IMG/VR virus record: IMGVR_UViG_3300019135_000026
Location: 1-47,172 of that record
DNA length: 47,172 nt
Direction: 5' to 3' (one strand)
Origin: a virus
Below the pieces are notes generated by a model. It searched no databases. It saw only the letters and a list, made by a program, of their open reading frames with translations, and had not been told where the DNA came from. The position numbers were made by a program, and so were the translations under genes. Shown here one piece after another: positions 2,790 to 43,821 of this stretch (position 1 is the first letter of the stretch; each line of letters starts with the position of its first letter).

Positions 2790-3149
2790 TCAGGCCGAGC
2801 GCAGGTTCTGCACGGCGGCGTCGCCGGTGTCGGTGCGGAACACCAGGACGTGGGTGGAGCGCCCCCCGGAGGTGGCGACGATCTCGGGCGTGCCGGTCTT
2901 GACCACTCGACCGGCGGCCTTGACAGCGTCGGCGGTCAGGTAGACGCGCCCGGTGTTCAGGGCGTAGCCGTGCGCCTCGGCGTGCACCTTGGCGTCGAAC
3001 TTCGGTGCGACCGCCTCGGCGACCGCGGCGGGGGTGGCGAACTCGGGCTGGACGCCGAGGGCACGCAGGACCTCGGTGAGCTGGCCCAGCAGCTCGGGCG
3101 ACAGCTTGGACACGTCGACTGCGGGCTGGGACTTGGGGGTGCGGGCCAT
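2790..3149 (-). CDS. Hypothetical protein (119 aa)
   Basis: The ATG at 3149 follows a clear AGGAGG box. The N-terminal half is helical (SKLSPELLGQLTEVLRALG; AVAEAVAPKF); the C-terminal half reads as a small beta domain (GRVYLTADAVKAAGRVVKTG; STHVLVFRTDTGD). It is the first gene after a ~470-base gap without genes, so it probably has its own promoter there. No family recognised. Confidence 0.8.
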   Translation of the reverse strand: MARTPKSQPAVDVSKLSPELLGQLTEVLRALGVQPEFATPAAVAEAVAPKFDAKVHAEAHGYALNTGRVYLTADAVKAAGRVVKTGTPEIVATSGGRSTHVLVFRTDTGDAAVQNLRSA

Positions 3150-4830: not shown

Positions 4831-5325
4831 TCAGGTCGTCTCCTGGGTGATCGGTGCGGGGGTGGACAGGCGGGCGAGGTCAGACACCGACATGCCGTGC
4901 TCGGCGAGCAGCGCGAGCACGGTCTCGATGGCGACCTGGGCGGTGCGGTCGGTCGCGGCGTCACGTGCGCGGTTGCGCACGTGGCCGGTCGTGGCGGTCT
5001 TGGTGGCGGCGTGCGCCTCACGCTGGACGCGGGCCGTCAGCGTGCAGATGCGGGCGTGCAGCAGCTTGTTGAACGGGCTGGACACCGCTCGCCCGTGGTC
5101 ACGCGCCGACAGCTTGTGACGGTCGAACGCCCCGTCGGCCAGGAGCAGCTCGTCGGGCGGCAGTGCGGGCAGGCCCGGCGTTTGGACGGGCGTCGCAACC
5201 GGTGCAGGTGCGGCCGGTGCCTCCGGGACGGCGTCGACTGGGGGGGTGACGACCAGTGTCGGCCCGTCGGGTGCAAGTCCGAGCGCCGCCAGGTGCTCGC
5301 GGCGCTGCGTGTCGGTCATGGGCAT
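4831..5325 (-). CDS. Hypothetical protein (164 aa), proline-rich linker
   Basis: The ATG at 5325 follows a GAGAGGA box. The first ~60 residues are proline/alanine-rich and disordered-looking; residues ~62-164 are a charged helical domain (DRHKLSARDHGRAVSSPFNKLL; TAQVAIETVLALLAEHG). Its stop nearly touches the start of the 401-residue protein, so the two are probably translated together. Function unknown. Confidence 0.82.
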   Translation of the reverse strand: MPMTDTQRREHLAALGLAPDGPTLVVTPPVDAVPEAPAAPAPVATPVQTPGLPALPPDELLLADGAFDRHKLSARDHGRAVSSPFNKLLHARICTLTARVQREAHAATKTATTGHVRNRARDAATDRTAQVAIETVLALLAEHGMSVSDLARLSTPAPITQETT

Positions 5326-5364: not shown

Positions 5365-5751
5365 TCAGGACTGCAACAGCTCGGCGATGAGCTGTCCCTC
5401 GCCCAGCTGCATGCGCTCGCCCACGGCCTCGGCGAGCATGAAGATCTCGTGGGTGAGGGGGTCGCCGAACCAGGACGGGGGTGCGGTGGTGTTGTCCACC
5501 TGCCGCCACAGGCCGCCGATGGCCCGCAGCGTCACCAGCAGGTCCTTGGCGGGCGCCTGCCCGAGGAGTTCACGCCGCACACGCAGGCGCACGACGTCCA
5601 GGCCCATGCGCACCTGGAAGCGGCGGTGGGCGTTGGCGTCGCAGCGCAGGTCGATGCGCAGGTCGTCGATGGTGACGTCGGCGTCTGTCGCCAGCCACTC
5701 ACTCAGCTGCTCGAACTCGCGGCCGACGAAGTCGGGGGTGACGTTGCTCAT
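5365..5751 (-). CDS. Hypothetical protein (128 aa)
   Basis: The ATG at 5751 has a strong AGGAGG box. The protein is acidic at the start, then basic (DLRIDLRCDANAHRRFQVRM; VVRLRVRRELLG), with a tryptophan-containing centre and a helical C-terminus (IFMLAEAVGERMQLGEGQ). It has no cysteine cluster and no signal. Its leader is rich in TGTGCGGG on the plus strand, like several neighbours. Function unknown. Confidence 0.82.
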   Translation of the reverse strand: MSNVTPDFVGREFEQLSEWLATDADVTIDDLRIDLRCDANAHRRFQVRMGLDVVRLRVRRELLGQAPAKDLLVTLRAIGGLWRQVDNTTAPPSWFGDPLTHEIFMLAEAVGERMQLGEGQLIAELLQS

Positions 5752-5796
5752 GTGGCGGCCCTCCTGGGCTTGTGTGTGCGGGTGTGCGGGTGTGGG

Positions 5797-13702: not shown

Positions 13703-14347
13703 ATGAACCGATCCGCCGACCCGGCTCCCGATCCGGCCCTTGATCCCTGGACGCGCGGCGCGGGTTGCCCCCAGGCTGAGTGGCACACCGACTGCCCGGT
13801 GCGCGAGCACGACTGGACCGGCTGGTCTGACTGGGCGCAGGGCATGGCGCGCACCCACGTGCAGCGCAAATGCCAGGGCTGTGACCGGTACCTGATCTGG
13901 GTGCCCAAGGCGGGCGTGCGCGCATCCGACGCCGCCAGCTCCCAAGCCGGGATCAGCCTGGCCGACGACCGCATCAGCCCCGACGCCATCCGCTGCCCGG
14001 CGTGCGGGCGGGTGTCGGCCCACCCCGATGACGTCGCCCGGCGCTACTGCGGCAGATGCCATGCCTCACACGACGAGCTGGCCCGCGACCGCCGCTGGTC
14101 GCTGGCCTGGGTCACCTACGACCGGCGGATCCGCCGGGGCCTGTCGATACGCCGAGCCGCCCGCCAGATCAACGTCGGCATCTCCACCCTGAGCCGCCTG
14201 GAGGCCGGGGCGCCGATCAGCGCCGCCACCTTCGACCGGGTCATCGCCTGGCTCGACATCGACCCTGGCGTGTTCGCCTACGGACGCCCGGGGTCGAGCG
14301 GGCTGACCGCCGGGCGCCCCACCTCCTCATCCGGGGCACGGCAGTGA
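13703..14347 (+). CDS. Zinc-binding HTH transcription regulator (214 aa)
   Basis: The ATG at 13703 is preceded by GTTCGG two bases away and has no ribosome site. Residues 57-60 (CQGC), 98-101 (CPAC) and 116-119 (CGRC) form zinc knuckles. Residues ~140-192 are an XRE-type helix-turn-helix (RRGLSIRRAARQINVGISTL, then SRLEAG, then an IAWLDIDPGVF helix). It should bind DNA as a dimer and may regulate this accessory run, of which it is the first gene. Its stop overlaps the next start (GTGA). Confidence 0.82.
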   Translation: MNRSADPAPDPALDPWTRGAGCPQAEWHTDCPVREHDWTGWSDWAQGMARTHVQRKCQGCDRYLIWVPKAGVRASDAASSQAGISLADDRISPDAIRCPACGRVSAHPDDVARRYCGRCHASHDELARDRRWSLAWVTYDRRIRRGLSIRRAARQINVGISTLSRLEAGAPISAATFDRVIAWLDIDPGVFAYGRPGSSGLTAGRPTSSSGARQ

Positions 14348-22347: not shown

Positions 22348-22359
22348 CTGTGATTCGGC

Positions 22360-22400
22360 GGTCCAAGTTGTGGACCTCCACCCGATGCGATGGAGGTCCA
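22360..22400. terminator. Overlapping hairpins, bidirectional terminator with operator-like dyad
   Basis: GGTCCA-AGTTG-TGGACC (22360-22376) overlaps TGGACCTCCA (22371-22380) that pairs with TGGAGGTCCA (22391-22400). The two stems share TGGACC and exclude each other. The site lies between convergent stops at 22347 and 22409. The first dyad matches 31021-31037 at 16 of 17 bases. Confidence 0.75.
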
Positions 22401-22408
22401 GCCAAGTC

Positions 22409-23596
22409 TCAGGCGGCCAGTTCGGTGAGCCGCTCGTCGACCTCGACCAGGGCAGTCGCGTCGGCGCGGATGGCGGCGCGCACGCCGCGGACCCGCTGCA
22501 CCCCGATCGCTGAGTCCATGGTGGTGGCGGCGTCCAGGGCGCCGAGCATCTGCATGGCGGCGGCGTCGATGTCGCCTGTCCCCGCGTAGGCGCGCGCGAG
22601 GTTGGACGCCGCGTACATCCGCTCGCGGGTGCCGGGGGCGGTGGCGCCCAGGACCGGGGTGAGTGTGGTGACTGCCGTGACGGTGTCGCCCAGTAGCGTC
22701 TCGGAGAAGCCGCGGTAGTCCGCGAGCCGCTGGGGGGTGAACGTCCACAGGTAGGCGTCGGGGGAGAAGAACACCAAGCCGCCGTCGTCGTCGGACTCGA
22801 TCAGCCCGTGCTCGGCGCGGACCAACGCGTCGGCGGTGGCGCGCCAGTCCCCGCCCAGGGCGGCCTCCTCGGCGTGGCGCGCCGCCAGCCACGCCCGCAG
22901 TCGTCCCGGCGCAGCTGCCAGGGACGCGCGTTCGTGCAGGCGCAGCGCCGTACGGTGGTCCCCGCCGCGCAGGCCGCGCGGGATGGGGGAGTACAGCGCC
23001 GCCTGGGAGGTCAGCGCGGCGGCGCGCAGGGCCTCGTCGCCCGCCTCGACCGCGGTCTGCTCGGCGAGGGTGAAGTGCGCGCGCGCCGCGCCAGGACGGT
23101 CGGCGTCAAAGGCCAGCCAGCCCGCCAGCGCCGCGGTCTCAGAGGTCAGCCGGGTCAGCCGGGCGCGTCGGGACGGGGACAGGCCGCCGTCAAGGCGCCG
23201 GGCGAGACGGTCGAGGTGGGCGGTCACGGCGGGCGTCAGTGCCGCGGCACGCTCGTCGTGATAGGCCGTCGCATAGGCGCGTGTGACGTCGGTGAGGGCG
23301 TTCAGCATGGCGTCGTCGGTCGGGGCTGGGGATACCGCGATGTCCAGTGATCCCAGCGGCAGCGCGGGAAGCAGCGCGGTGAGGCGCAGCAGTGTCCTTC
23401 GTTCCATGTCTACCCCCAGCTCATTGTTGCGGTCGCGCGCGTCCCGTAGGTGGGCGCGCGCGACGCGCACGGCATCGGAGGCGGTGACCCGCGCCCCGTC
23501 GGGGCGGGTCAGGCGGATCGCCAGCTCGGCCCGGTCCAAGGCCTCATCGGCGAGGCCCAGCGCCTCGATAACGGTACTGATCCCCCGAGCGGCCAT
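22409..23596 (-). CDS. TPR protein like the C-terminal part of Streptomyces XRE/TPR regulators (395 aa)
   Basis: I chose the ATG at 23596 with AGGGG about 9 bases ahead. The segment MERRTLLRLTALLPALPLG and the following long run of helix pairs (AHLDRLARRLDGG; ARAHFTLAEQTAVEAGDEAL; RERMYAASNLARAYAGTGD) resemble the TPR part of large regulators frequent in Streptomyces. Those usually start with a helix-turn-helix, which I cannot see here; the N-terminal 65 residues are helical but not an obvious HTH. It may act as a partner-binding or ligand-sensing protein, or as a decoy of host regulators. It runs against its neighbours and looks host-derived. Confidence 0.82.
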   Translation of the reverse strand: MAARGISTVIEALGLADEALDRAELAIRLTRPDGARVTASDAVRVARAHLRDARDRNNELGVDMERRTLLRLTALLPALPLGSLDIAVSPAPTDDAMLNALTDVTRAYATAYHDERAAALTPAVTAHLDRLARRLDGGLSPSRRARLTRLTSETAALAGWLAFDADRPGAARAHFTLAEQTAVEAGDEALRAAALTSQAALYSPIPRGLRGGDHRTALRLHERASLAAAPGRLRAWLAARHAEEAALGGDWRATADALVRAEHGLIESDDDGGLVFFSPDAYLWTFTPQRLADYRGFSETLLGDTVTAVTTLTPVLGATAPGTRERMYAASNLARAYAGTGDIDAAAMQMLGALDAATTMDSAIGVQRVRGVRAAIRADATALVEVDERLTELAA

Positions 23597-23759
23597 GGTG
23601 CCATCCCCTGATCGGCGGTGCGACGAGTTAGCTGATCGTACGGCGAGCTGACACAGGGGAGTAGTGCCCTGATCGCCCACCGTTTGGACTACTCTGCGCG
23701 CTACGTTGACCACTCTAGACTCATCGGTCAACCCCTCCCCATCCGGCTCAAGGCGGACT
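23597..23759. promoter_or_regulatory. Divergent promoter region with two inverted repeats
   Basis: GAGTAGT (23659-23665) and ACTACTC (23688-23694) form one dyad; GTTGACC (23705-23711) and GGTCAAC (23726-23732) form another, with TAGACT between its arms. It separates the leftward TPR gene from the rightward gene at 23760. Likely operators for one or both. Confidence 0.6.
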
Positions 23760-24023
23760 ATGGCGACACTGGAGCACGTCACCAGCTTGATCGGGCGCTA
23801 CATCGAGACCCACCGCACGGTCCGGCCGGGCGAGCAGGATCGCTACGGCCTGCCCGCTGGCAGCGACTGGGGCGGAGCGGGCTGGCTCATCGGGGTGAGC
23901 GTGGACCCCGGCGGCGCGATGCTGATCGAGGTCGACTGGGGCATGGCCTGGACCGTTGATGAGCACACCACCATCCTGGAGGTGCCCGCCCCTGACGACG
24001 CCCCCGCCCCGGAGCCACGGTGA
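23760..24023 (+). CDS. Small hypothetical protein (87 aa)
   Basis: ATG at 23760; the region just upstream belongs to the dyad-rich promoter, which argues against the longer frame from 23706. An N-terminal helix (EHVTSLIGRYIETHRTVRPG) is followed by a beta-rich part with WGGAGWLIGVSVDPGG and MLIEVDWGMAWTVDEHTTI. The acidic, proline-rich tail is disordered. Overlaps the next start (GTGA). Confidence 0.75.
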   Translation: MATLEHVTSLIGRYIETHRTVRPGEQDRYGLPAGSDWGGAGWLIGVSVDPGGAMLIEVDWGMAWTVDEHTTILEVPAPDDAPAPEPR

Positions 24024-30260: not shown

Positions 30261-30521
30261 GTGCGCGTGTCGCGCTACCCCGAGAGCCGCGAAGCCATCC
30301 TCGACGCGATCGACGCCCACACCGAGCTGGCAGGGCCGTCACTGCGTGAGGTCTGCGCCGTCGTCGGACTGCCCGTCGGCACCCTGCACGACTACCTGTG
30401 CCGTCTCGCCGAAGAGGGGCTGGTCGAGTGGACCCCACGTCGCTTCCGGTCCCTGCGGCTGACCGAAGCTGGCCAGCGTGCCCGCCGGATGCCCTCGTCG
30501 TCGGCAGCGTCTGTGAGCTGA
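30261..30521 (+). CDS. LexA/MarR-like winged-helix protein (86 aa)
   Basis: GTG at 30261 after AGGAG. REAILDAIDAHTELAGPSLREV, then VGLPVGTLHDYLCRLAEEGLV and a wing (RRFRSLRLTEAGQ) match the winged-helix DNA-binding domain of LexA-type and related regulators. It lacks a protease or dimer domain, so it is a single-domain DNA-binding protein. Position next to a resolvase and just before the late operon fits a regulator. Confidence 0.78.
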   Translation: MRVSRYPESREAILDAIDAHTELAGPSLREVCAVVGLPVGTLHDYLCRLAEEGLVEWTPRRFRSLRLTEAGQRARRMPSSSAASVS

Positions 30522-31006
30522 GGCTGGCCGTCACCGGCAAGCCCGTCGCCAAGCAGCGTCCCAAGTTCGCCCGTCGCGGTGACCACGTTCGCATCTACAC
30601 CCCCGAAGCCACCGTTAGCTTCGAGGAGTCGGTGGGCTGGCAGGCCCGCGAGCAGCTGCTGCGCCTGCAGGCTGACGGCGACCTGGACCTGGCGGTGCTG
30701 CCGTTCACCGGCCGGGTCATCGCCACGCTGGCGTTCCACCTGCGCCGTCCCGCCAGTGCGCCCCGCCGCGTGCGCTACCCGCTGCGCAAGCCCGACGTCG
30801 ACAACCTCGCCAAGAGCGTCCTGGACGCACTGGTCAACGTCGCGGTGCTCAATGACGACAACATCGTCACTGACTTGACGATCTCCAAGCGTTTCGCCCC
30901 GCCCGACGCCCCCGAAGGTGTAGAGATCACCCTGCTCAGCTGGCTGCCCGAGACTCATGTAGCAAGCCCCGGCCTGAGCGGACGTATCAGCACGCCAAGC
31001 TCATAA
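30428..31006 (+). CDS. RusA-like Holliday junction resolvase (192 aa)
   Basis: LAVTGKPVAKQRPKFARRG, then RKPDVDNLAKSVLDALV and NDDNIVTDL give the RusA fold with the conserved Asp and Lys positions (DVDN, K, NDD). These dimeric enzymes cut four-way junctions symmetrically and help debranch replicated phage DNA before packaging. The start is uncertain: GTG at 30428 lies 94 bases inside the upstream gene, and no ATG or GTG falls closer to the domain. A non-standard start around 30500 would give a more typical length. Confidence 0.82.
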   Translation: MDPTSLPVPAADRSWPACPPDALVVGSVCELRLAVTGKPVAKQRPKFARRGDHVRIYTPEATVSFEESVGWQAREQLLRLQADGDLDLAVLPFTGRVIATLAFHLRRPASAPRRVRYPLRKPDVDNLAKSVLDALVNVAVLNDDNIVTDLTISKRFAPPDAPEGVEITLLSWLPETHVASPGLSGRISTPSS

Positions 31007-31016
31007 CCATCACAAC

Positions 31017-31049
31017 TGGTGGTCCAAGTCGTGGACCACCACTTACCAT
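31017..31049 (+). promoter_or_regulatory. Late promoter with overlapping operator dyad
   Basis: TGGTGGTCCA (31017-31026) and TGGACCACCA (31032-31041) form a perfect 10-bp dyad with a 5-base centre. TACCAT (31044-31049) six bases before the ATG at 31056 is a leaderless -10, and the dyad covers the -35 and spacer. A protein bound there would control the head operon. Confidence 0.65.
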
Positions 31050-31055
31050 GCCCGC

Positions 31056-31709
31056 ATGTCCACCACCGCAGCACCGCCCGCAGGGAATAGCAACAACCCC
31101 TACGGCGTCACCTTGCACACCGTGGTCACCGCGTCGGGCAGCGACATCCACCTGCAGACCGTCGAGGAGGCCGCCTGGTACGTGCGCCGCCGCGACGAGT
31201 ACCAAAAGCACAACAAGTTCCCCAACATCTCCGATCTGCTGGACCTCGACCGGCTGCTCACCCTCGAAGTGATGATCTATCGCTGGTCGCTGTGGATCTC
31301 CCAGGGCTGGGACTACCTGTACGGACTGATCGACCAGCGCGAGATGCAAAAAAACATCCGCGAGTACTCCGCCGAGATCCGGCTGCTCAAGCAGAACATG
31401 GGCATCGACAAGGTCGGGCGTGACAAAAACAAAGGCGAACAAGTCGGCGACTACCTGTCCACACTGCTGGACCGCGCCAAGGTGTTCGGCTATCACCGCA
31501 ACAACCAGTACCAGCTGGCGGTCACCAAGATCTATGAGCTGCGCAGCATGGTCACCACCTATGACCGCTGCGACGAGCGCGAACGCGAAGAACTCGACCT
31601 GTCACCGGAACGCATCCTGGACTGGATCCGCGGCGACTTGATCGTGCTGTGGGACGAACTGGACGATAGCTTCCGCGTCGATCAGTCCATCTGGGTCCGG
31701 AGCCTTTGA
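31056..31709 (+). CDS. Probable terminase small subunit (217 aa)
   Basis: ATG at 31056. After a short disordered start the protein is helical: EEAAWYVRRRDEYQKHNKF, DRLLTLEVMIYRWSLWISQG, a REMQKNIREYSAEIRLLKQN helix, and RILDWIRGDLIVLWDELDD. The length, helical make-up and position as first gene of the head operon, upstream of TerL, suit a small subunit that marks the packaging site. I see no classical HTH motif, so the call rests mainly on context and on a general likeness to annotated small subunits. Confidence 0.62.
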   Translation: MSTTAAPPAGNSNNPYGVTLHTVVTASGSDIHLQTVEEAAWYVRRRDEYQKHNKFPNISDLLDLDRLLTLEVMIYRWSLWISQGWDYLYGLIDQREMQKNIREYSAEIRLLKQNMGIDKVGRDKNKGEQVGDYLSTLLDRAKVFGYHRNNQYQLAVTKIYELRSMVTTYDRCDEREREELDLSPERILDWIRGDLIVLWDELDDSFRVDQSIWVRSL

Positions 31710-32309
31710 GTGCCGCGGACCAAGACCAAGCCGCCACCGTCCCCCCGCGGCAAGGGCCAAGCCCGGCTCGGTCTCACCGGCGAACAACTCGGCGCGCGCT
31801 TCCCCCTGCTGCGTGTCCTGGCCGGACCGCCCGGCGCCGACGGCGGACGCCGCGCCTGGGACGCCGCGCTCACCGCCCGGCCCGACGTCATGCACCGCAT
31901 CCTCGCCGACGTCATCAAGCAGACCTACGCCAAGCCCGGCCGCGTCGGCCAGCTGCCCATGCCCCACGAGGAAGAGGTCGACTTCCAGGCGCTGCTGTAC
32001 GGGGAGGACCAGGACCGCCCGCTCACCGAGGTGCTGCCCGCACTGATGGCCGCCAAGGGCCTGGGCACCCGCAGTCTGAGCGAACGCAGCGGCGTACAGC
32101 GCGCCACCCTCATCCGCCTGCTGCGCGGCGCCTACCTGCCCAACGCCATCGAGCTGCGCGCCATCGCCGTCGCCGTCGGAAAGCCCGCCGCCCACTTCGT
32201 GGAGTACCGCAAGCTGATGGCCGCCACCGCCCTGATCCGCATGGTCGACGAGCAGCCAGGCCTGGCCACCAGGCTGTACCGCGACTACCTCACAGTCCGC
32301 GCCTCCTGA
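31710..32309 (+). CDS. XRE-type helix-turn-helix protein (199 aa)
   Basis: GTG at 31710 directly follows the previous stop. The N-terminus is basic (PRTKTKPPPSPRGKG). Residues ~106-166 are an XRE-type HTH: LTEVLPALMAAKGLGTRSLS, RSGVQRATLIRLLRGAYLP and an IAVAVGKPAAHFVEY helix. Its place inside the head operon between a probable TerS and a fibre-like gene is unusual for a repressor; it may instead be the DNA-recognition part of the packaging machinery. Confidence 0.8.
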   Translation: MPRTKTKPPPSPRGKGQARLGLTGEQLGARFPLLRVLAGPPGADGGRRAWDAALTARPDVMHRILADVIKQTYAKPGRVGQLPMPHEEEVDFQALLYGEDQDRPLTEVLPALMAAKGLGTRSLSERSGVQRATLIRLLRGAYLPNAIELRAIAVAVGKPAAHFVEYRKLMAATALIRMVDEQPGLATRLYRDYLTVRAS

Positions 32310-32326
32310 GCGCCGAGACACATCCC

Positions 32327-33562
32327 ATGCGCGTAGACCTGCCCCCCTCGGCCCTGTCCGCCCTGCTGCGCGAACGGACCTTCCTCAGCCACGTGCCGGA
32401 GAACACCCCGTTCGGCAACGCCCCGGTGTCCGCGCGCACCCCGGTCATCGAGGCCAACAGCGTCTTCGGCGCCTCCCGGCTCCGCAACGTCATCCGCACC
32501 GCAGGCGCGGGCGGGGTGACCTCGTCGGGGGGCGGGCTGCGCCTGGCGACCACCGCGGCGGGGGCGGACTCGGTGGTCCTTGAGACCGCCGAGATCGGCC
32601 GCTACCAGTCGGGGTTCGCCGCGGAGTGCGGGATCGGGGTGCGCTTCCCCGCAGCCGCGCTGACCGGCAACCAGGTCGCCCGCTGGGGCTACTTCGACGA
32701 CGCCAACGGGTTCGGGTGGGGACGCGACGCGGCCGGGGTGTACGTATGGACCCGGCGCGGCGGGGTGGAGACCGCCGTCCGCCAGGCCGCCTGGAACAAC
32801 GACCGCCTCGACGGCTCGCGCGGCCTGTTCAATGCCTCGGGCAACACCCTGGACGTCGCCCGCGGCCAGAACTGGCAGGTCGATATGACCTGGGCCTACG
32901 GCATGGTCGCGTTCTCGGTGGTGCTGCCCGAGACCGACGCAGGTCCCGGCTACCTGCGCCAGCGTCCCATTACCGTGCATCGCATCAACCCCAGCGGGCA
33001 GACCTCCACGCTGAACCCTAACCTGCCGGTGTCGGCCAGCCTGCACAACAACGGCACCGCCGCCGCCGCGGAGATGTTCGTCGCTGACCGCCACTACTCG
33101 ATTCTGGGCCACTACGAGCCGTCGGATCGGGTCACCTCCGACAGGGTGCTGAGCAAGGCGCTGACCACCGCCTGGACGCCGGTCATCTCCTGGCGCCGCA
33201 AGGTCACCGGCTTCGAGGCGGTGTCGCTGCTCACCGAGGGCTACGGGATCATCGTGGCCACCAACAACGTGCTGCTCCAGGTGCGGCTCAACACCACCCT
33301 CACCGGCGCCGTCTGGGCCACCCCCAGCGAGACCTCGCCCGATGAGACCGCCCTGGAGCGCGACATCACCGGCACCGCTTTCGCCGGAGGGGAGAAGGTC
33401 TTCGGCGCGCTGCACGCCGCGGGGGGTCAGGCCACCCGGACGCTTGACCCGCACGAGTTCGAGATCCGCGTCCCCCGCAGCCAGATCCTGTCGCTCGTGG
33501 CGCGCTCCACCACCGGCACCGCCAGCGTGGACCTCAGCTCCCGCATGCTGGAGGAGTGGTGA
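32327..33562 (+). CDS. Fibre- or spike-like virion protein (411 aa)
   Basis: ATG at 32327. The centre is rich in short beta strands and aromatic-glycine turns (YFDDANGFGWGRDAAGVYVW; WQVDMTWAYGMVAFSVVLP), typical of a beta-sandwich surface or fibre domain. I recall similar NGFGWGRD words in large-phage surface proteins. A second half (GFEAVSLLTEGYGIIVATNN; LSLVARSTTGTASVDLSSRM) repeats the style. Probably a head or neck decoration or receptor-facing protein. It lies before TerL, not with the tail genes. Confidence 0.7.
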   Translation: MRVDLPPSALSALLRERTFLSHVPENTPFGNAPVSARTPVIEANSVFGASRLRNVIRTAGAGGVTSSGGGLRLATTAAGADSVVLETAEIGRYQSGFAAECGIGVRFPAAALTGNQVARWGYFDDANGFGWGRDAAGVYVWTRRGGVETAVRQAAWNNDRLDGSRGLFNASGNTLDVARGQNWQVDMTWAYGMVAFSVVLPETDAGPGYLRQRPITVHRINPSGQTSTLNPNLPVSASLHNNGTAAAAEMFVADRHYSILGHYEPSDRVTSDRVLSKALTTAWTPVISWRRKVTGFEAVSLLTEGYGIIVATNNVLLQVRLNTTLTGAVWATPSETSPDETALERDITGTAFAGGEKVFGALHAAGGQATRTLDPHEFEIRVPRSQILSLVARSTTGTASVDLSSRMLEEW

Positions 33563-33648
33563 CCGGCCGTACCGACACGCATCCGTACGCCTCCCGCCCC
33601 GGACTCGTCGGCCCGGCCCGCTACGCCATCACCGCCAAGGCCACCTGA
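33559..33648 (+). CDS. Tiny coupled ORF between fibre-like gene and TerL (29 aa)
   Basis: GTG at 33559 overlaps the previous stop (GTGA) and its own TGA overlaps the TerL ATG (TGATG), filling the gap exactly. The product begins TGRTDTHPYASRPGLVG and ends YAITAKAT. It includes a GACACGCATC near-copy of the palindrome family. It may be a real small virion peptide or a ribosome carrier. Confidence 0.5.
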   Translation: MTGRTDTHPYASRPGLVGPARYAITAKAT

Positions 33649-35291
33649 TGCCCGTCGTCGAGGACCTGTCAGAGGAGGAGCGCTACCTGCTGGCCTTGCT
33701 CCAAGACCCCTCCGGCATCGACCTGGCCGAGTTCTTGTGGACCGACGAGACCGCCGCGGACTCGGTGTTTCGCTGCTGGGACTTCCAGTACCCGTGGTAT
33801 CGCACGGAAGCGAAGTTCCAGATCGACCAGTGCGCCCGTGCGATTGGCAAAAGCGTCGGTATCCAGATGCGCGCCTTCGCGTTTGCATTTACCAACCCGG
33901 GCGAGGAGATGCTCATCACCGCGCCGGAGATGATCCATTTGGATCCGGTGACCAAGAACATCGAAGATCGCATCGTCTCGACTAGGGTCAGCCGCGAACT
34001 GCTCAAAAAGCAAGCCGGATCATTGGGTCTCACCCACCGGCCGTTCGAGGCGAAATTCGTCAACGGCGCGCGCATCATCGGTCGCATCCCTCAGAAGGAC
34101 GGCAAAGGCGTCAAGGGGATGCACCCCAAGAAGCTGGAGATGGACGAGGCGCAGGACTATCCCGAAGCGGGCTGGGTCGAACTCGGCGAGACGTTGAAGT
34201 ACGGCAACGACGACGCCACCTGGCGCTCCCACGGCGTCAGCCGCGGAGTGCGCGACCGCTACTACAAGCAGTCCCAACCCAACTCCGGCTGGTTCGTGCA
34301 CCGCTACACCGGCATGCACCGGCCCGACTGGACCGCAGAGGAACGCGCGTCCAAAGCGGAGCTGTACGGCTCCCGCGACCACCCCGACTACCGGCGCAAC
34401 ATCCTGGGCCTGCACGGCGACGCCCAGTCGCCGTTGTTCGTGCTCAACCGGCTGATGGCCTGCGTCGACAGCCAGCAGGCCAGCGACTACAACACCAACG
34501 AGTACGCCCACCTGCGCATCAACGACGAGCGGCTGCGCGACTCCGGACTGACCATCGGTGATCTCATCGACGTGCCGGTGCGCCACAGCGCCTATGAGTC
34601 GGTGTGGATCGGCATGGACGTCGGCATGACCAACCACCCCACCGAGATCCTGGTCTACGGCGAGACCGACCAGCGCAGCGGACTCAAGCCCGGCGAACCG
34701 GCCACCCGCCTCAAGCTGCTGCTGCGCCTGCACCTTGAACGCATCGCCTCACGCGACCAGCGCCTGGCTCTGGAGCACCTCCAAGACGTCTACCGCCCAC
34801 GCTGCATCGCCATGGACCGCACCGGGCTGGGCCTGCCGATCTGGTCAGAGATCATGACCGGCACCAACCGCGCGCTGGCCGCCTGCCTGCGCGGCTACAA
34901 CTTCTCCGAGAAGATCATCGTCGGCTACGAGCAAGCCGACCAGGACAAGGCCGCCACGACCTTCTGGACCCAGGAGGAAGAAGAACAGCGCACGATCTGG
35001 GCCAACGTGTTGGAGTACGCCTCAGACCAGCTGCGCGCCCTCGTCGACGCCGGGGCGATGCTGCTGCCCTGGGACACCGACCTGCTGCGCGAGTTCCAAG
35101 GCCAGACCTACCAGGTCGTGCGTTCGACCACCAACCCCTACGGGCGCAAGCAGTTCAACATGGGCAAGTTCCACTGCCTGGACGCCGCGCGCATGGCCGT
35201 GCTGCCCTACGTCCTGCAGCAGATCGAGGCCAGCCTCAAGACGGTCCGCAAGGCCCAGGTCCCGGTCCTTGACACCTTCCTGATGGCCTAG
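33648..35291 (+). CDS. terL: Terminase large subunit (547 aa)
   Basis: ATG at 33648. It is the motor and nuclease that translocates and cuts phage DNA at the portal. Walker A-like ARAIGKSV lies at 63-70, Walker B LEMDEAQD at 163-170 (with catalytic DE), and the RNase H-like nuclease carries D324 (WIGMDVG), D390 (AMDRTGLG) and D512 (HCLDAAR). The length is normal. The portal follows after two small genes, and the probable small subunit is two genes upstream. Confidence 0.95.
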   Translation: MPVVEDLSEEERYLLALLQDPSGIDLAEFLWTDETAADSVFRCWDFQYPWYRTEAKFQIDQCARAIGKSVGIQMRAFAFAFTNPGEEMLITAPEMIHLDPVTKNIEDRIVSTRVSRELLKKQAGSLGLTHRPFEAKFVNGARIIGRIPQKDGKGVKGMHPKKLEMDEAQDYPEAGWVELGETLKYGNDDATWRSHGVSRGVRDRYYKQSQPNSGWFVHRYTGMHRPDWTAEERASKAELYGSRDHPDYRRNILGLHGDAQSPLFVLNRLMACVDSQQASDYNTNEYAHLRINDERLRDSGLTIGDLIDVPVRHSAYESVWIGMDVGMTNHPTEILVYGETDQRSGLKPGEPATRLKLLLRLHLERIASRDQRLALEHLQDVYRPRCIAMDRTGLGLPIWSEIMTGTNRALAACLRGYNFSEKIIVGYEQADQDKAATTFWTQEEEEQRTIWANVLEYASDQLRALVDAGAMLLPWDTDLLREFQGQTYQVVRSTTNPYGRKQFNMGKFHCLDAARMAVLPYVLQQIEASLKTVRKAQVPVLDTFLMA

Positions 35292-40776: not shown

Positions 40777-41319
40777 GTGTCCTACAGCCGCAACTTCGGG
40801 TTCAGGTCGTTCGAGAACATCGTCCGTGATGGGCGGTTCCGCACGCCCCGCACCGGTGATGCCTACCTGATCGGCACCGCGGTGATGGTGGACCCGGCAA
40901 CCCCGGGCTACTTCACCCGACCCGCCGCCGCTCAGCCCGCCACCCCGCTGTGCGGGATCGTGCTGTACGAGCACATCCAGCACCAGGGCACCGACATGGG
41001 GCTGACCAGCACCCATGACTCGCCCTACAACACCGCCCCCCCTGGGCGTTACGCCCAGATGATCCACGGGGTCGGCACCAAGGTGTGGTTCCGCAACACC
41101 GTCGACCGGTCGATGTACGACGGCCGGATCCAGGAGGGCGTGTCCCTCGTGGCGCTGGCCCCCGACGGCGTCACCGGCGTGCCGACCCTGGCCGTGGGTG
41201 ACTTCCTCACCCCCGCAGCCGACGGGACGTTCGTCGAGGGCAGCGCAGCCAACGGCTGGCTGATCGTCGAGCAGCTCAACCCCGCCACCGGCCTCGTTGA
41301 GGCCCGGTTCCGCTTCTAG
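40777..41319 (+). CDS. Head decoration protein (180 aa)
   Basis: GTG at 40777 after AAGGAGG. The protein is beta-rich with many glycine/proline turns (YLIGTAVMVDPATPGYFTRP; KVWFRNTVDRSMYDGRIQEG; GWLIVEQLNPATG), as for the small trimeric proteins that sit on the capsid. Its position between scaffold and major capsid protein is typical. It is separated from the capsid gene only by a ribosome site. Confidence 0.75.
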   Translation: MSYSRNFGFRSFENIVRDGRFRTPRTGDAYLIGTAVMVDPATPGYFTRPAAAQPATPLCGIVLYEHIQHQGTDMGLTSTHDSPYNTAPPGRYAQMIHGVGTKVWFRNTVDRSMYDGRIQEGVSLVALAPDGVTGVPTLAVGDFLTPAADGTFVEGSAANGWLIVEQLNPATGLVEARFRF

Positions 41320-41332
41320 GAGGTGTGACCAA

Positions 41333-42268
41333 ATGACAACCGCGAGCAAGGAATTGGTGGACGCGTTCGGGCGCACCCTGGACGAGAACCGCCGCAAGTA
41401 CGAGCTGTTCGAGAAGGCCAACCAGGAGGCGCGCAAGAACTGGGACAACCCCAGCTGGCGTGCCGAGTTCGCCGCAGAGCTGACCGAGTCGATCCTTTTG
41501 GGATTCGACTACGAGACGCTGGTGGACCGCTGGATCGAGACCGAGCGCACCGACTTCGATGGGCGCATCTTCATCCGTGAGGCCTCCGGCCTCAAGGCGT
41601 ACTACATGGCGCGCGGTGGCTACATCGAGGCGTCGGAACTGACCAGCGAGAACGCAGAGCTGCCCCGCGACATGGTCGGGGTGCACGTCTATGAGTTCGA
41701 CGACAAGCTGGTCAACAACTTCGCCGAGTCCGCCCAGACCCTTCGGGATCTGGCGATCCGGCGGATGGACGCCGAGATCAACCGGCGTGTCCACACCGTG
41801 CTGTCTGAGGCGATCCCCCCCGGCTCGCCCTACTACATCGCAACTCCCGGGCTGTCCAAGCCCGCACTGGACGCCGGTCTGCGCGCGGTCGCTGACACCT
41901 CGGAGTCCGACCTGGTCATCGTCGGTCGCGCCACCATGGTCGACCAGCTCGCCGACTTCGACGGCTACGGCGATGAGACCAAGGAGGAGATCCGCGACCG
42001 CGGGGTCCTGGGACGCTACCGCGGCGCCACCGTCATTCGTCTGCGCAACTTCAAGGACGAGGACAACCAGGCGTTCATCCCCGCCAACCAGCTGTGGATC
42101 ATGGGCCGCGACGCCGGGAAGTTCGGCTTCTACGGCGGCCTCAAGAGCAAGGAGTTCGAGGAGCAGGACAACTGGTACTGGCACTACCTCGCGCGGCGAG
42201 ACACCGGCCTTCTGGTGTACCACCCCGAGCGTGTCCGGCTTCTGGTCGACAGCAACCAGCAGCCGTAA
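41333..42268 (+). CDS. Major capsid protein (311 aa)
   Basis: ATG at 41333 after an AGGAGG box placed at the end of the previous gene. An N-terminal helical arm (DAFGRTLDENRRKYELFEKA) that may be processed, then HK97-type features: an E-loop-like beta region (LGFDYETLVDRWIETERTDF), a spine helix (ETLRDLAI-like QTLRDLAIRRMDAEINRRVH), and A-domain strands (ESDLVIVGRATMVDQLADF; VIRLRNFKDEDNQAFIPAN). Location, length and strong translation signal support the call. Confidence 0.88.
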   Translation: MTTASKELVDAFGRTLDENRRKYELFEKANQEARKNWDNPSWRAEFAAELTESILLGFDYETLVDRWIETERTDFDGRIFIREASGLKAYYMARGGYIEASELTSENAELPRDMVGVHVYEFDDKLVNNFAESAQTLRDLAIRRMDAEINRRVHTVLSEAIPPGSPYYIATPGLSKPALDAGLRAVADTSESDLVIVGRATMVDQLADFDGYGDETKEEIRDRGVLGRYRGATVIRLRNFKDEDNQAFIPANQLWIMGRDAGKFGFYGGLKSKEFEEQDNWYWHYLARRDTGLLVYHPERVRLLVDSNQQP

Positions 42269-42292: not shown

Positions 42293-42325
42293 CAACAAGC
42301 CCCCGCCGATGGCGGGGGCTTGTTG
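42293..42325. terminator. Perfect 15-bp terminator hairpin after the capsid gene
   Basis: CAACAAGCCCCCGCC (42293-42307) pairs with GGCGGGGGCTTGTTG (42311-42325) around GAT. It sits 24 bases past the capsid stop and ends with TTGTTG, the nearest to a T-rich tail seen in the window. Confidence 0.85.
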
Positions 42326-42425: not shown

Positions 42426-42707
42426 ATGCTCACCATCCTGCTCGTCGCCCTCGTCGCCGCCCTGACGGTGTGCGTGCTGGCCGCCATCGGCGCCCTGATG
42501 CGCGCCAACCGGCGCCAGGCCGCGCTGATCTCCGCCCAGGCGATCCAGATGCACCAGACCGCGGCGGACCAGGCGGTCATCGCCACCTCGCTGCGGCTGA
42601 TCCGCGACTCCACCGCCGACGAGGACTACCGGCTGCTCATCGAACGCGAGCTGGACCGGATGCCGCATGCGTACCTGCCGCTCGGTGACCCCGAGGACTC
42701 ACGATGA
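42426..42707 (+). CDS. Single-span membrane protein (93 aa)
   Basis: I chose the ATG at 42426 with GTG at 42420 as alternative. Residues 2-25 (LTILLVALVAALTVCVLAAI) are one membrane span; the rest is a cytoplasmic helix (ISAQAIQMHQTAADQAVIAT; DEDYRLLIERELDRM). It overlaps the band-7 gene by four bases, so the two are a unit. The layout recalls small partners of SPFH proteins. Confidence 0.8.
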   Translation: MLTILLVALVAALTVCVLAAIGALMRANRRQAALISAQAIQMHQTAADQAVIATSLRLIRDSTADEDYRLLIERELDRMPHAYLPLGDPEDSR

Positions 42708-43765
42708 CCCCCACCATCCGCAGCGTGTCGACCCTGGCCGCCCTGGCGCTGCTCGCCGCAGGCTGCGGGCTGGCGTCGGCTTCACCCAACCAGCTGTGCC
42801 TGCAGTACGGCGGCGGCATCAGCGAGGACAGGCAGTTCAAGCAGGTGATCCCGCCGGGCACCAACAACCAGACCATCGACGCTGGCGACGGCGTCTACTG
42901 CTATCCCAACGACCAGCGCACCTACCGGATCACCTCCCGCGCCGACGAGGGCGACAGCGGCTACGCCGACTCCATCGAGGTGGCGACCTCCTCGGGCGCG
43001 ACCGTGCAGCTGGAGGCGATCGTCAACTTCAAGCTCACCCAGGACCCCGAACTGCTGCAGCGCTTCCACAACGACGTCGGCCTGCGCACCGGCGCCTGGT
43101 ACGCCATGGACCAAGACCCCACCGTCCCCGACCCCGGCTGGGCGGCGATGCTCACCCAGTACTTCCGCCCGGCGCTGAACACCGCCGCCAGCGAAGTCGC
43201 CCGCCGCTACACCGTGGACCAGCTGGCCACCGGCCAGGACGAACCCGCAGTGCCCGCCCCCGCCACGGCCTCCGCAGTGCCGGAGCAGCAGTCCACCCGG
43301 GCCGAGTTCGAGCGGGCCATCGCCATGGCCTTCAAGAGCAACTTGATCGCCGGGATCGGCGGGGACTACTTCTGCGCCCCGTCCTACACCGGGGTCCCGC
43401 GAGACGACGCCCCGCCGCCCAACGAGGACGACAGCGTCGATGACCCCACAGGCTGCGGGGACCTGGAGTTCCGCCTCGAACGTGTGATCGCACCCCCGGC
43501 GGTGCTGGACAACTACGCGCGCCTGGAGGCGGCGCTGATCGCCGAGGAGACCGCCCGGCGCCAGATCGACGTCGCCGCCCAGGAACGCCAGGCGATCCAG
43601 TCCATCGTCGACGTCGTCGGCCCCGAGGTGTACGCCTGCCTGGAGGCCTACGACGCGGTGATCGAGGCCAACAACCGCACCGATCCCGCCGCGCCCAAGA
43701 TCGCCCCGCCGCCGTGCCTGACCGGCGCCGCAGGCGGCAACGTGCTCATCAGCCCCGGCGGGTAG
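42704..43765 (+). CDS. Band-7/SPFH-like lipoprotein (353 aa)
   Basis: ATG at 42704. Residues 1-21 are a lipoprotein signal with lipobox LLAAGC, acylated at C21. Residues ~55-240 follow the SPFH (band-7) pattern of a beta-rich start (TVQLEAIVNFKL) and a helical part (RAEFERAIAMAFKSNL), and residues ~260-315 are a coiled helix (NYARLEAALIAEETARRQID). SPFH proteins form large membrane rings, and band-7-like membrane proteins are known in actinophages. It lies between two strong terminators with its partner. Confidence 0.82.
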   Translation: MTPTIRSVSTLAALALLAAGCGLASASPNQLCLQYGGGISEDRQFKQVIPPGTNNQTIDAGDGVYCYPNDQRTYRITSRADEGDSGYADSIEVATSSGATVQLEAIVNFKLTQDPELLQRFHNDVGLRTGAWYAMDQDPTVPDPGWAAMLTQYFRPALNTAASEVARRYTVDQLATGQDEPAVPAPATASAVPEQQSTRAEFERAIAMAFKSNLIAGIGGDYFCAPSYTGVPRDDAPPPNEDDSVDDPTGCGDLEFRLERVIAPPAVLDNYARLEAALIAEETARRQIDVAAQERQAIQSIVDVVGPEVYACLEAYDAVIEANNRTDPAAPKIAPPPCLTGAAGGNVLISPGG

Positions 43766-43782: not shown

Positions 43783-43821
43783 GCGCGACGCCCCCGCTGA
43801 CCAGCCGCGGGGGCGTCGCGC
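43783..43821. terminator. Perfect 15-bp hairpin after the lipoprotein gene
   Basis: GCGCGACGCCCCCGC (43783-43797) pairs with GCGGGGGCGTCGCGC (43807-43821) around nine bases. It closes the two-gene cassette that opens after the hairpin at 42293-42325. Confidence 0.82.

Follow-up and report, generated by a model that had tools for sequence, protein, structure and literature searches.

A conserved two-box dyad before the head operon of a virus and its relatives as a putative operator of late genes

A perfect inverted repeat stands immediately before the first gene of the head/packaging operon in the uncultivated phage of virus record IMGVR_UViG_3300019135_000026. The question raised by this locus is whether the repeat is read as DNA by a regulatory protein, folds as RNA into a terminator, or has another role. 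The whole record (47,172 bases) was analyzed and is referred to as the window. The repeat (31017-31041, + strand), two 10-bp arms with a 5-bp spacer, is designated here as the dyad, and 11 relatives keep it in front of the same gene. The best reading of these comparisons, considered fairly probable, is that the dyad is an operator for a common phage regulator. It is probably the docking site of a phage protein that controls the timing of particle building.

Sequence, recurrence and conservation of the dyad

The arms at 31017-31026 (TGGTGGTCCA) and 31032-31041 (TGGACCACCA) are perfectly complementary and are separated by the 5 nt AGTCG. They include two TGGNCCA boxes (31020-31026 and 31032-31038). 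The dyad covers the -35 position and the spacer of a putative -10 element, TACCAT (31044-31049, + strand). Both the dyad with its coordinates and this overlap had been described in an original prediction made from the letters of the window, and both agree with the sequence. Exactly 6 nt separate TACCAT from the ATG at 31056, as expected of a leaderless gene, and no Shine-Dalgarno sequence was seen upstream of gene 31056. In mycobacteria, leaderless translation requires an ATG or GTG at the mRNA 5' end, and such a codon is also sufficient for it (PMC4633059). In the 65 nt upstream of 31056, arms of this length were found in 0 of 500 shuffles. Perfect dyads whose arms reach 10 bp or more number 12 in the genome, where about 1.5 would be expected. 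Because perfect dyads are common in the window, the palindrome alone is unremarkable, and the case must rest on position, recurrence, and conservation.

The dyad recurs in the window at 22356-22380 (+ strand), between convergent gene ends, where 21 of 25 bases agree with 31017-31041. No site with fewer than 5 mismatches to the 25-mer appeared anywhere when the window was shuffled 300 times with dinucleotides preserved. The central 17-mer GGTCCAAGTCGTGGACC (31021-31037) reappears as GGTCCAAGTTGTGGACC at 22360-22376 with a single base differing, as had been predicted. An overlapping 10-bp inverted repeat, TGGACCTCCA/TGGAGGTCCA (22371-22400, + strand), forms a terminator-like hairpin between the convergent genes.

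Relatives were gathered through alignment of the terminase, and then through alignments of gene 31056 and of a small winged-helix protein (wHTH) encoded upstream of it. Eleven of them include the upstream DNA (L005, L008, L010, L055, L058, L060, L095, L098, L099, L100, and L101); in a twelfth, L009, the sequence breaks off within the gene 31056 homologue. The check for the dyad in relatives, proposed with the original prediction, was positive: a two-box dyad lies within 65 nt of the start of the gene 31056 homologue in all eleven (12 of 12 with the window included). The spacer is 5 bp in every relative. Seven of the eleven dyads are of the GGNCC type, one of them divergent, and four are of the GGCTC type. 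The clade A late-promoter sites (the window, L005, L008, L055, L058, L060, and L095) follow GGNCCR-N5-YGGNCC, L010 carries the variant TGCCCG-N5-GGGGCA, and clade B (L098-L101) has GGCTC[A/T]-N5-[T/A]GAGCC. Of the 12 sequences, 11 have a 6-N5-6 dyad in which 5 or more of the 6 pairs form, against 2.7 expected from shuffles. Among six clade A sequences, pairwise identity is 93% at the ten box positions, 30% at the two N positions, and 41% in the spacer, and it is 37% in the 15 nt upstream and 25% in the 17 nt downstream; the boxes were recognized partly by eye, so that the contrast of box and flank is somewhat circular, while the fixed position is not. Searches of viral contigs with the exact full-dyad DNA pattern and with gene 31056 as a single sequence gave no match, nor did scans of genome contigs.

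The position of the dyad is also conserved. In ten relatives, the end of the 17-mer is 29-33 nt from the start codon and 17-20 bp from a TTYACT-like element (TTCACT, TTTACT, TTCCCT, or TTGACT), which stands 6-7 nt before the start. Because the dyad ends 17-20 bp before this element, one clade A box falls at the -35 position. With an element 6-7 nt before the start in the window and the ten relatives, these sequences resemble leaderless promoters of the actinobacterial type. In L095, an ATG is found at the conserved distance, and the apparent start of the gene 31056 homologue is ten nt further on. The upstream neighbour of the dyad varies: it is the RusA-like resolvase gene rusA, a small open reading frame (ORF), a tRNA with a CTA anticodon (L055), or another gene (L098-L101). 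Since this neighbour differs among relatives, the dyad belongs with gene 31056 and not with rusA.

Some of these late promoter regions show features of their own. The CTA (amber-suppressor) anticodon tRNA of G009, a relative of 144 kb, immediately precedes the late promoter (L068:14548-14620; L055:2853-2925). In L058 (about 2840-3000), the region looks duplicated, with two dyads 70 bp apart and a tiny ORF (ATGACCCCTGCTGCACGATAA) between them. In L100 (5209-5675), the gene 31056 homologue seems split, with a promoter and start-like sequence at 5209 and the body from about 5670. An endonuclease-like reading frame was seen by eye in between, and an intron or an insertion is possible.

Sites of the same kind were found at further loci. 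L098, L099, and L100 of clade B each have an additional GGCTC...GAGCC site, located before another gene. G010 has a second site before a FliA/WhiG-type sigma factor gene, just past a strong canonical terminator, and further sites are located in the late operon of G009 and in intergenic DNA of G024. Equal box cores at separate loci are the expected trace of one diffusible regulator. The idea that a common protein acts at two sites, put forward in the original prediction, thus gains from the 12 of 12 dyads, their nearly constant distance to the start codon in ten phages, the conserved boxes, and the same core at a second locus in three clade B phages; as to the copy at 22360 it does not hold up as well, since no promoter-like arrangement is present there.

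Candidate regulator and assessment of the operator

In the proposed mechanism, the two TGGNCCA boxes 12 bp apart would be bound by a dimeric DNA-binding protein that the phage encodes, and the bound site is predicted to act in cis at the leaderless promoter from which the head/packaging operon is read. The likeliest binder would be the LexA-like winged-helix protein whose gene immediately precedes rusA. For the lineage, activation is somewhat more likely, because the promoters are without the usual -35 and -10. The site in the window lies between -35 and -10, and repression would suit it at least as well. A dual role as operator and terminator is possible.

The favoured candidate is the small LexA/IclR-like wHTH (86 aa; 30261-30521, + strand) encoded just before rusA. 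The wHTH gene precedes the late operon in the window and in ten of the eleven relatives (L010 is cut at its start, and the contig of L060 ends before the position of the gene), and it stands at least one gene upstream of the promoter. The proteins are 79-91 aa long with isoelectric points of 6.1-9.7. The structure model is a winged helix (predicted local distance difference test score 80.7), and LexA-DNA complexes top its PDB list with a weak E-value of 0.013. The match to Pfam LexA_DNA_bind reaches 19.5 bits, under the cut-off of 23.7. Profile matches are to the IclR/LexA-type helix-turn-helix (HTH) and phrog_3502, the others being weak, and RinA/ArpU/Ltr homology is not among them. The 86-aa protein as a whole contains no C-terminal autoprotease domain. 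Given that a protein binds the dyad, the chance that it is the wHTH is about even, and its position makes it the likeliest candidate. The alternative candidate is the XRE-like HTH protein encoded by the second operon gene (31710-32309, + strand), which is likewise conserved in the dyad-bearing relatives. Among the binders originally named, these two are present in such relatives, while the tetratricopeptide repeat (TPR) protein at 22409 and the ORFs around the zinc-HTH at 13703 were unmatched in those sequences of the relatives that were searched with tblastn.

Several observations weigh against an operator of this kind. The window and L010 depart from the positional rule: the start is 18 and 21 nt away, respectively, and TTYACT is lacking. 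Compared with the ten relatives, the dyad of the window is closer to the start by 11-12 bp, so the rule is not universal, and the boxes of L010 differ as well. With this 11-12 nt shift, the upstream box TGGTCC (31020-31025) of the window stands 18 bp from TACCAT, a neat arrangement but a single case. The spacer is asymmetric, with A first in nearly all clade A sites and rarely T last, unlike a simple symmetric operator. The copy at 22360 is in no promoter-like setting, between convergent genes and beside another hairpin, and looks more like a terminator than an operator. The dyads lie 1-34 nt after stop codons, a terminator-like placement. Of 17 more distant records, 9 likewise contain relatives of the wHTH, so the protein is not exclusive to box-bearing phages, and 12 of the 17 gave one match to the dyad pattern only, in a coding-looking place.

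The distant terminase relatives have no common box sequence. Unrelated dyads are located near the homologous gene in L016 (about 5716-5742; TTGCCATTCCA-N5-TGGAATGGCAA) and L017 (about 5776-5792), and CGTTCG-N7-CGAACG was read, by eye only, upstream of the gene 31056 homologue of phage GX15bay.

A broader proposal is made tentatively, with a chance below even: these phages may have a new family of protease-less LexA-like wHTH late regulators, which would read a two-box dyad at leaderless head-operon promoters with an unusual -10, TTYACT, and whose operator specificity would have moved from GGNCC to GGCTC, with several sites of a genome changing together during phage evolution. The operator reading supplies a concrete late-control element and a candidate regulator for a group of phages known almost entirely through metagenomes. 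With matched changes of the box core at two loci, these phages provide a natural experiment on the co-change of regulator and operator.

Alternative functions

The alternative that survives best, although unlikely, is an RNA hairpin, a terminator or processing hairpin, which would end early transcripts after rusA and insulate the late promoter; the copy at 22360 would end two convergent genes. The dyad lies 10 nt past the stop of the RusA-like ORF, and its RNA fold is stable (-17.8 kcal/mol, z score -3.4). GC-rich hairpins are numerous in this genome, the copy between the convergent genes is accompanied by a second hairpin, and ACTT follows most clade B sites. No Rfam family matched. However, a T-run is absent after every late-promoter dyad (31042-31055 in the window), and a terminator scan was negative there on the + strand. 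The hairpin is no better than shuffles in L058 (z score -0.36, with the pairing broken) and L055 (z score -0.80), though both boxes fit the GGNCC consensus, and box sequence is kept beyond the needs of pairing. The dyads keep their distance to the start codon but not to the upstream stop, and the G010 dyad at the sigma gene already has the strong canonical terminator just upstream. An obligatory rusA terminator as the sole role, the case that the original prediction had set against itself, is ruled out by the varying neighbour and by the loss of pairing in L058.

It is much less probable that a dedicated sigma factor uses a TGGNCC box as its -35 and TTYACT as its -10, the second box being incidental. 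One box does stand 17-20 bp upstream of the conserved TTYACT-like element, and three related phages encode sigma-70-type factors: FliA/WhiG-type in G010 (L066:13019-13786, - strand) and G009 (L068:7499-8266, + strand), and a sigma-70 region 4 protein in G024 (G024:90973-91119). However, neither the window nor G025, a clade B phage of 66.9 kb, yielded a sigma factor, and a sigma factor was rejected as the common factor, having been found in three relatives and not in the window. Both boxes are conserved equally, the spacing varies by 3 bp, and the window has TACCAT instead of TTYACT.

A packaging site (cos/pac) recognized by the terminase would suit the position upstream of the terminase genes, but it is hardly credible given that several phages carry second copies at unrelated loci, such as the promoter region of a sigma factor and the middle of a late operon. 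A chance palindrome, for all the dyads in this GC-rich DNA, is ruled out by conservation in the 11 relatives and the second copy, and its probability is negligible.

Genomic setting and comparison with known systems

Gene 31056 (31056-31709, + strand), predicted to be leaderless, encodes a protein of 217 aa with unknown function and 55-63% identity to the 11 relatives. It opens a + strand operon that continues with the XRE-like gene, a head/packaging-like product (phrog_1645; 32327-33562, + strand), the terminase large subunit (33648-35291, + strand; 42% identity to the annotated terminase of GX15bay), and further structural genes. The last gene before the dyad is the RusA-like resolvase ORF (30398-31006, + strand), whose true start is uncertain. 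Very strong GC-rich hairpins with 15-bp arms follow the genes at 41297-42268 (hairpin at 42293-42325) and 42704-43765 (hairpin at 43783-43821), and are likely to be terminators within the structural genes. Near the second dyad copy, a pectate-lyase-like protein (Pfam PF00544) is encoded in the phage at 21124-22347. On the other side, the adjoining gene at 22409-23782, on the strand opposite to its neighbours, encodes an NsdA-family TPR-like regulator (NCBIfam NF053720). This gene appears to be host-like cargo and points to a Streptomyces-like host.

Among known systems, LexA and its SOS boxes resemble this system in a winged-helix domain, here a predicted one, and in dyad half-sites roughly one helical turn apart. 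The wHTH of the window (86 aa) differs in being without a protease/dimerization domain, and GGNCCA-N5-TGGNCC is neither CTGT-N8-ACAG nor GAAC-N4-GTTC. In phage P2, the zinc-finger protein Ogr/Delta reads an imperfect dyad, TGT-N12-ACA near -55, upstream of late promoters. The dyad upstream of a late promoter is alike here, while its sequence and position differ. The RinA/Alt/Ltr regulators of phi11, TP901-1, and phi13 work at a repeated sequence upstream of the late promoter, and the repeats of Alt are located at -76 to -32, just upstream of it (PMC13123087). The system proposed here differs from them in its two-box dyad at about -47 to -31 and its leaderless promoter, in a candidate that is a LexA-like winged helix with no RinA/ArpU homology detected, and in the presence of rusA between the regulator gene and the promoter. 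The two conserved boxes 12 bp apart appear to correspond to the repeats of RinA/Alt/Ltr. By this analogy, the control at this locus would be a familiar kind of switch, a variant of RinA/Alt/Ltr-like late control.
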